Assembly: GCA_017643365.1 (NCBI GenBank)
Contig: JAEPNO010000005.1
Coordinates: forward strand, 124,001-188,000
DNA length: 64,000 nucleotides
Source of the DNA: Balneolaceae bacterium
GTDB taxonomy: Bacteria; Bacteroidota; Rhodothermia; Balneolales; Balneolaceae
Direction of reading: 5' to 3'
The position numbers were made by a program, and so were the translations under genes. The notes beneath the pieces were generated by a model that saw only the letters and a program-made list of their open reading frames with translations, did no database searches and was not told the origin of the DNA. Position 1 is the first letter of the stretch. Every line of letters begins with the position of its first letter. Positions 32,409-34,406 of the stretch are shown one piece after another.

Positions 32409-32460
32409 AGGGTAAAAATCAAATTCCAGTGATCAAATTCCAAACAATTTCTAATCTGAA

Positions 32461-32676
32461 ATGATTTAAATCAGATAAGTCCCCGAATTCACACGCTAAG
32501 TCTGACCCGTATCGTGTTTGAGCTTCCCTTCAGCCACTTAAAGCACCAAATTCGCGATTTCAAAAATTTCCTTACGAGATAAAGCAAAGTGTCGTTGAAC
32601 CTTCGGAAGAATCCTCAGGTTGACTCACTAAAGTCATTCCTGCAAAGGCAGGAATCTAAGGCTAATTTGAACCGAG
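32461..32676. repeat. Tandem copy A of the SDR gene tail plus palindrome (decayed)
   Basis: This 216-base unit repeats the 3' end of the adjacent SDR gene and is followed by another copy. On the minus strand it still spells FEIANLVL, then a stop, then VAEGKLKH, another stop, and VNSGTYLI. The part away from the gene tail holds a near-perfect palindrome (ATTCCTGC-AAAG-GCAGGAAT, 32636-32655) and a CCTCAGGTTGACTCAC segment. It is the more diverged of the two copies and cannot be translated. Confidence 0.85.
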
Positions 32677-32892
32677 ATAATTTAAATCAGATAACTCCCC
32701 GAATTCACATGGAAAGTCTGTCCTGTTGAGTGTGTGAGCTTCCCTTCGGCTAACAAAAGTACCAGATTTGCGATTTCAATAAATTCATTCCGTGATAAAG
32801 CAAAGTGACGTTGAACCTTCGGAAGAATCCTCAGGTTGACTCACTAAAGTCATTCCTGCGAAGGTAGGAATCTAAAGTTAAATGAACCGAGA
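32677..32892. repeat. Tandem copy B of the SDR gene tail plus palindrome
   Basis: The second unit lies 216 bases from copy A and 215 bases from the matching point in the SDR gene. On the minus strand its gene-derived part has no stop and reads FIEIANLVLLLAEGK, then LTHSTGQTFHVNSGSYLI and a stop, differing from the gene's own tail at several residues. It shares with copy A the non-coding half, including the imperfect palindrome at 32852-32871. The stretch 32409-32460 before the units shows nothing recognisable. Confidence 0.85.
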
Positions 32893-32896
32893 TAAT

Positions 32897-33613
32897 CTAA
32901 ATCAGATAACTACCCGAATTCACATGAAAAGTCTGTCCCGTTGCGTGTTTGAGTTTCCCTTCAGCTAACAAAAGCACCAAATTCGCGATTTCCTCGGGCG
33001 GCGCGATTTCGTTCAACGCAAGTCCTTGAGTGAGATACTCAGCCCCATACACCTCAATAGATTCCCGCGCCATATCCGTTTCCACAAAACCGGGAGCGAT
33101 GGTGTAGGCGGTTATACCTTTCTTTCCCATACTTCGGGCAATGCTTTTGGTGAGGCCGATCATCCCGGCTTTACTTGCTGCATAAGCCGCATATTCTTGA
33201 GTATCACCACGCATTCCTGCCCTGCTCGAAATGTTGATGATTCTCCCTTCGATTCCCCGTTCCATCCAAGAATTGATCGCCCATTTACAAAGCAAAGCCG
33301 CTGATCTGAGATTCACTTGCTGGGTAATATCCCACGTTTCCAGCCATTCCTCATCTGAGATACTGAAATCTGCATCCCGAAACATCCCGGCATTGTTGAT
33401 TAATACATCGGGAATTTCTTCACCATTAAAAACTTCTTTTAGCTTTTGAAGATCTTCTTGATTTGAGAGATTGCAGACAATATGGCTATAGTTATTGGTT
33501 GATTGGTTAATGGTGGATGTGGAAGTACCAATAACCTCGAATCCTTTAACCAATAACAAATCAGCAATTGCTTTTCCGATTCCACGAGATGAGCCTGTTA
33601 TAAAAATATTCAT
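32897..33613 (-). CDS. Short-chain dehydrogenase/reductase (SDR)
   Basis: The 238-residue Rossmann-fold oxidoreductase has the cofactor motif TGSSRGIG (6-13), NNAG, the catalytic serine in INISSRAG and YAASK (catalytic Tyr and Lys), and the C-terminal GQTFHVNSG typical of FabG-like SDRs. The substrate is unknown. Its ATG overlaps the TGA of an upstream small membrane frame, so it looks like the last gene of the SUF-DUF2480 transcript. Its 3' end is duplicated twice downstream. Confidence 0.9.
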   Translation of the reverse strand: MNIFITGSSRGIGKAIADLLLVKGFEVIGTSTSTINQSTNNYSHIVCNLSNQEDLQKLKEVFNGEEIPDVLINNAGMFRDADFSISDEEWLETWDITQQVNLRSAALLCKWAINSWMERGIEGRIINISSRAGMRGDTQEYAAYAASKAGMIGLTKSIARSMGKKGITAYTIAPGFVETDMARESIEVYGAEYLTQGLALNEIAPPEEIANLVLLLAEGKLKHATGQTFHVNSGSYLI

Positions 33614-33891
33614 TTAACGATGTGTTTATTCCAAATTCGAACAAATAATACACCAAATAATTGGGCTACAGTCGTAATAACTAGAATAAATATTATGAAT
33701 AATACGCTTAAGACTACTACAAATAAATACTAATTAAACGAAGGTATATATTCAAATATATATTCCAGTAAATTTTTAAGAATATTAGATGAATATATAA
33801 ATTTAGTGAATATTATTATTTGAATAAGACATCCAAACAAATGCCCTAGAATGTACACTGGGTGACTATATTTTTGATCAATTTTCAACAT
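33610..33891 (-). pseudogene. Small membrane protein gene interrupted by an in-frame TAG
   Basis: The frame starts at an ATG 5 bases after the DUF2480 stop and ends in a TGA that overlaps the SDR ATG, exactly the spacing of an operon gene. It spans 94 codons with a single internal TAG at 33732-33730. Part one (53 residues, MLKIDQKYSHPVYILGHL...) has one hydrophobic helix. Part two (about 39 residues, YLFVVVLSVLFIIFILVI...FVRIWNKHIVK) has another. In DNA this AT-rich a random frame would be expected to carry several stops. A small two- or three-helix membrane protein that has been disrupted is likely; family unknown. Confidence 0.5.
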
Positions 33892-33896
33892 TTGAC

Positions 33897-34406
33897 CTAA
33901 CCCTTCCAAACTGGCACAAAACTACACGCTTCCCCATACATAATCTTTTTTGCTGTTCCCTGTAACTTATTGGTCACCAGTAAATAAATAGAATCAGGTA
34001 CGTATATGTCACCGCAGCCTTTAAGCAAGATGAACTTGTCTTGGTACTGCGACCAATCGTGAGCTTCAATATTCCGACGGTATAATTCATGAAGAATAGC
34101 GTCACGTTTTAAATGGAAAACTTCTTTAGCAAATTCCGAGGCGTGAGAGGTAATCAGCATCCAGGCCCATGGAGCGATAATGGCATCGGTCGAGCAGAAA
34201 ACAGATAAATATTGACCTTCAAACTGCGACCAATCGAACTCTTTAAGGTGAGCTCTGAAATCCGCTTCTTTGAGCAGCAATCCCATATGCAGAAAGTCTT
34301 TGATATCCAGTTCTGCAATTGAGGTATCATCATGAAAAAGCTTTGCCAGATCGAGGGTGATCAGCTTGGTGTTGGCTTTTACTTTGTTGATGATTGGTTG
34401 GGACAT
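33897..34406 (-). CDS. DUF2480 family protein
   Basis: The 169-residue protein matches the Bacteroidota-specific DUF2480 family in its pattern: INKVKANTKLITLDL, DIKDFLHMGLLLKEADFR, EFDWSQFEGQYLSVFCSTDAIIAPWAWMLI. Function is not known. In this window it follows the SUF genes and is separated from the sufA-like gene by a 113-base gap that holds an inverted repeat. Constant association with Fe-S assembly genes would suggest a link, but that is inference. Confidence 0.85.
   Translation of the reverse strand: MSQPIINKVKANTKLITLDLAKLFHDDTSIAELDIKDFLHMGLLLKEADFRAHLKEFDWSQFEGQYLSVFCSTDAIIAPWAWMLITSHASEFAKEVFHLKRDAILHELYRRNIEAHDWSQYQDKFILLKGCGDIYVPDSIYLLVTNKLQGTAKKIMYGEACSFVPVWKG

Follow-up and report, generated by a model that had tools for sequence, protein, structure and literature searches.

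A membrane-protein-like frame with one in-frame stop, probably a broken orphan gene, at a variable DUF2480/SDR junction in Balneolaceae

Two classes of described bacterial sequences serve as comparison systems for the small frame analyzed here, namely, the pseudogenes left behind by failed horizontal transfers (PMC522871) and the unannotated small proteins or open reading frames (ORFs) that lie between genes (PMC6385055 and PMC10682499). The failed-transfer pseudogenes, as described, are matched by our frame in its low GC content, restriction to a lineage, single nonsense codon, and lack of expected conservation; it departs from them in that our searches turned up no intact parent gene and decay is read from the frame alone. 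The frame is like the unannotated small proteins in being <100 amino acids (aa) long, hydrophobic, and situated in an operon-like gap, and unlike them in being interrupted by a TAG codon and in having no relatives in the collections searched. We regard the frame as ordinary in kind, i.e., as a trace of gene gain and loss attributable mostly to the usual turnover of genomes, and consider the apparent insertion hotspot in which it lies to be the more useful result.

The window, i.e., the whole 64,000-nucleotide stretch of DNA that was analyzed, comes from a member of the Balneolaceae, and the best contig matches to its DUF2480 protein are mostly Balneola and Balneolaceae records. On its minus strand, the gene for the DUF2480 protein (33897..34406; 169 aa; Pfam PF10652, E = 5.1e-58), which stops at a TAG, lies upstream of one for an SDR-family dehydrogenase (32897..33613; 238 aa; PF13561, E = 2.1e-39; PF00106, E = 2.8e-36). 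Between the two is an AT-rich insert of 283 nucleotides (nt) (33614..33896), which has a GC content of 24% versus 41% for the window and is present as a single copy in its own genome. Running through this insert on the same strand is a frame of 94 codons, counting its terminal TGA (33891..33610), whose single internal stop, a TAG at codon 54 (33730..33732), separates two hydrophobic segments. The first half (33733..33891) consists of 53 sense codons starting at an ATG, and the second (33613..33729) consists of 39 sense codons that are strongly hydrophobic and include no ATG, GTG, or TTG. Five bases separate the DUF2480 stop (33899..33897) from the ATG of the frame, and its TGA (33612..33610) shares bases with the ATG of the SDR gene (33613..33611). 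The preliminary description had reported a one-stop frame with the spacing of an operon gene; its coordinates and both gene junctions were reproduced, on the minus strand, a point left unstated there, and the plus-strand translation of 33610-33891 contains nine stops. An Rfam search of 33300-34200 at an E value of 1 returned no match, and a folding z-score of -1.28 gave no sign of structured RNA in the region.

Searches with the protein obtained by reading through the TAG recovered no credible relative in 92 genomes of the family (E value of 1) or 394 of the phylum; in genome contigs, viral contigs, plasmids, and phages; or in Pfam (E value of 10), PHROGs, and NCBIfam. Four of the 394 phylum genomes, its own among them, yielded matches at E values up to 0.001. 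The best non-self matches (E = 1.2e-4 and 6.8e-4; 33 to 43% over 36 to 64 residues) cover short stretches, and we put them down to biased composition rather than homology. One (G040) lies antisense to a 720-aa ORF, presumably for a penicillin-binding protein, and another (G039) falls in a frame with three TAA codons; neither match is a full-length gene of this kind. A further match (G138) lies within a 671-aa frame. An intact homologue is thus absent from the collections searched. In a genome of the same genus (G001), the DUF2480-to-SDR gap is only 22 nt and has no such frame, and elsewhere the junction holds other cargo or short gaps; the closest two genomes are still distant, with DUF2480 identities of 85% and 80%. 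The outcome that the preliminary description had named as refuting it, namely, that relatives conserve the protein neither before nor after the TAG, is the one given by the comparison of the same gap and by the homologue searches. Given the lack of detected relatives and the 22-nt gap in the nearest available relative, we interpret the sequence as a lineage-specific insert, as far as the searched collections show, rather than a conserved operon gene. One candidate counterpart, an intact 105-aa membrane ORF that another genome (G007) carries at this position, was set aside, as BLASTP found no similarity between the two; it is itself nearly an orphan, occurring in 2 of 89 genomes, its own included.

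We evaluated the frame against shuffled sequences. Among 5,000 dinucleotide-preserving shuffles of the insert, a frame interrupted by no more than a single stop was found in 1.3% when any sense frame was allowed and in 1.5% when any of the six was, and one is expected by chance in ~1 in 70 inserts of such composition. This makes chance a poor explanation. A stop-free run that equals or exceeds the 54 codons seen here is reached in 21% of the shuffles, so the length of the frame alone is no proof. For hydrophobicity and composition, the comparison was with 15,986 sense frames from shuffled sequences that had one stop or none: the best 19-residue hydrophobicity observed is matched by 0.43% of these, the mean hydrophobicity by 4.1%, and the proportion of T at second codon positions by 2.7%. 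The test of codon-position composition was not significant, with 12% of the comparable frames attaining the observed value. When the two halves were shuffled separately, the first was stop-free in 1.3% of shuffles and both stop-free and equally hydrophobic in 0.24%, the corresponding figures for the second being 3.2% and 0.002% (2 in 100,000 shuffles). By the shuffle tests, a coding-like signal is therefore present on both sides of the premature stop, clear in hydrophobicity and weak in codon-position composition. These tests are post hoc, on a locus picked by a reader from 64 kb, and for that reason count as support and not as proof; with this proviso, the earlier argument that chance is unlikely holds, and hydrophobicity adds weight to it. 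Judged by its sequence, the frame was probably once the coding sequence for a small membrane protein with two spans. AlphaFold2, given the single sequence, models the read-through form as all helical (mean pLDDT, 77.5; pTM, 0.50), which is as expected for hydrophobic segments and means little.

Our preferred reading, which we hold with moderate confidence, is that the frame represents an acquired orphan gene for a two-helix membrane protein that was broken by a nonsense mutation. Under this scenario, a short piece of AT-rich foreign DNA would have entered the DUF2480/SDR junction in this Balneolaceae lineage, bringing with it a gene for a small membrane protein, probably one of two helices. 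It would originally have been read in the operon direction, its ATG lying right behind the DUF2480 stop and its end overlapping the SDR start as ATGA. A nonsense mutation to TAG would then have cut the frame in two, with one hydrophobic segment on each side, so that the present product would be at most a 53-residue protein with a single span. The frame geometry, shuffle tests, start-less second half, low GC content, short gaps and varied cargo in relatives, and use of TAG as an ordinary stop argue for this reading; against it stand the lack of an intact relative in the searches, the deduction of decay from the frame alone, the weak codon-position test, the ~1-in-70 chance frequency of such a frame at a locus singled out from 64 kb, and the distance of even the closest two genomes. 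The suggestion in the preliminary description of a recently broken gene survives, partly supported, as the best reading, with both halves coding-like by the shuffle tests and the second devoid of a start; a gene conserved in this operon among relatives is not supported.

The first alternative is that the insert is noncoding AT-rich DNA, whose long frame and hydrophobicity are by-products of its richness in T. A frame of this sort turns up in 1.5% of the shuffles when all six reading frames count, and the longest stop-free run is reached in 21%; both figures are consistent with this alternative, as are the nonsignificant codon-position test and the lack of a homologue in our searches. We nevertheless consider it unlikely, as the hydrophobic signal goes beyond the expectation from composition on both sides of the TAG and the frame fills the gap from end to end. 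A second alternative takes the first half to be an intact 53-residue single-span membrane protein ending at the TAG, with the remainder vestigial or untranslated. Its ATG right behind the DUF2480 stop, the normality of TAG as a stop, and the 1.3% frequency of a stop-free first half would fit such a protein; the stronger coding-like signal resides in the half that follows the TAG, however, and no relative of the first half was found in the searches, making this quite improbable.

We attach still less weight to a third alternative, that of an intact 93-residue gene with a TAG that arose in sequencing or assembly or belongs to a minority allele. The occurrence of just one stop in 93 codons and the draft state of the genome (51 contigs) speak for it; single-base errors are rare in assemblies, and the genome otherwise scores 99.81% for completeness and 0.02% for contamination, so that we judge this alternative very unlikely. 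The last alternative has the TAG read through by a suppressor tRNA, by pyrrolysine insertion, or by programmed recoding. Of the 41 ORFs of ≥200 aa that a mechanical listing gave for the window, 8 end in TAG, as does the adjoining DUF2480 gene. A CUA anticodon is absent from the 32 tRNAs found (150 of the 254 first-look candidates were scored, and a miss is possible), and no pyrrolysyl-tRNA synthetase scored over the cut-off (best, 24 bits versus 178). Thus, neither a tRNA or synthetase decoding TAG nor an avoidance of TAG as a stop was detected, and read-through, which had been raised earlier and has as its sole point that the frame stays open past the TAG, is hardly credible.

The junction itself varies across the Balneolaceae. 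DUF2480 was found in 86 of the 92 family genomes searched, and we examined the junction in 32 of these, including the genome of the window. In 30 of the 32, the SDR gene follows downstream in the same orientation (in G002, the contig ends there, and G014 has no SDR gene at this place). Of these 30 genomes, 15 have a DUF2480-to-SDR gap of ≥500 nt, and 12 have one of just 1 to 163 nt. By comparison, the upstream junction, between a gene for an Fe-S protein and DUF2480, reaches 500 nt in none of 30, and the downstream junction, between the SDR gene and the next gene (Pfam FMN_dh, which we take to be type 2 IDI-like), does so in 2 of 22. These counts do not represent independent events, as the genomes are related and some cargo is shared. 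The contents of the junction differ among genomes, with 7 of 17 scanned cargo proteins scoring over a Pfam cut-off. They include RDD (G007), DUF3800 (G035), RlaP (G038), DUF4160 and DUF2442 (G008), DUF2283 (G025), and DUF5343 with a subthreshold DUF4145 (G005). By eye, RDD cargo recurs in G004; DUF4160/DUF2442-like pairs recur in G006, G024, G025, and G029; and DUF2283 cargo recurs in G029 and G031. Most of the cargo is antisense to the operon; the sense cargo with a stop overlapping the SDR start comprises the frame in the window, the 105-aa membrane ORF of G007, and the DUF2283 genes. Three further cargo ORFs (L134:7505-7948, L143:1181-1663, and L149:3989-4270), none with a Pfam match over the cut-off, resemble one another in their N-terminal pattern when compared by eye and possibly constitute one recurring cargo family.

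The DUF2480/SDR junction thus resembles an insertion hotspot whose small cargo varies. Tentatively, it might be a true integration hotspot of the Balneolaceae, at which sets of one to four small genes would be repeatedly inserted and replaced; many of these genes would be antisense to the operon, and many would belong to families that are toxin-antitoxin-like or unknown. The mechanism would involve neither an integrase nor an att site within the cargo, and the frame in the window would then be one decaying passenger. Small genes of different kinds occupy this junction of core genes in about half of the examined genomes, and the flanking junctions rarely hold any. The site is therefore a handy one for studying the entry of single small genes into bacterial chromosomes where no mobility genes are visible. 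A literature search on DUF2480 found nothing.

Integron gene cassettes, whose attC motif consists of R'' and R' boxes, can also insert at genomic (attG) sites, and the locus is comparable to such insertions in two respects. Integron integrases are common in the Balneolaceae, with 48 of 89 genomes (e.g., L153-L156) having one over the curated cut-off; in control genomes, the integrase model found matches in 14 of 14, none of them over the cut-off (0 of 14). Moreover, GTTRRRY occurs only twice in a 320-nt stretch, once at each edge of the insert. A cassette was accordingly a tempting explanation, which we rejected: unlike integron cassettes, the insert has no attC-like partner site, the genome of the window has no integron integrase over the cut-off, and attC-like pairs occur in 3 of 16 inserts, versus 0.98 expected. 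A full-text literature search combining Balneolaceae and integron found nothing.

On the other side of the SDR gene, we observed that its 3' end and downstream flank are tandemly repeated (window positions 32452-32992) with a spacing of ~216 nt. Three copies of a 110-nt part, 79 to 100% alike, leave two C-terminal pseudo-copies behind the gene; the same place in G001 is occupied by just 57 nt.
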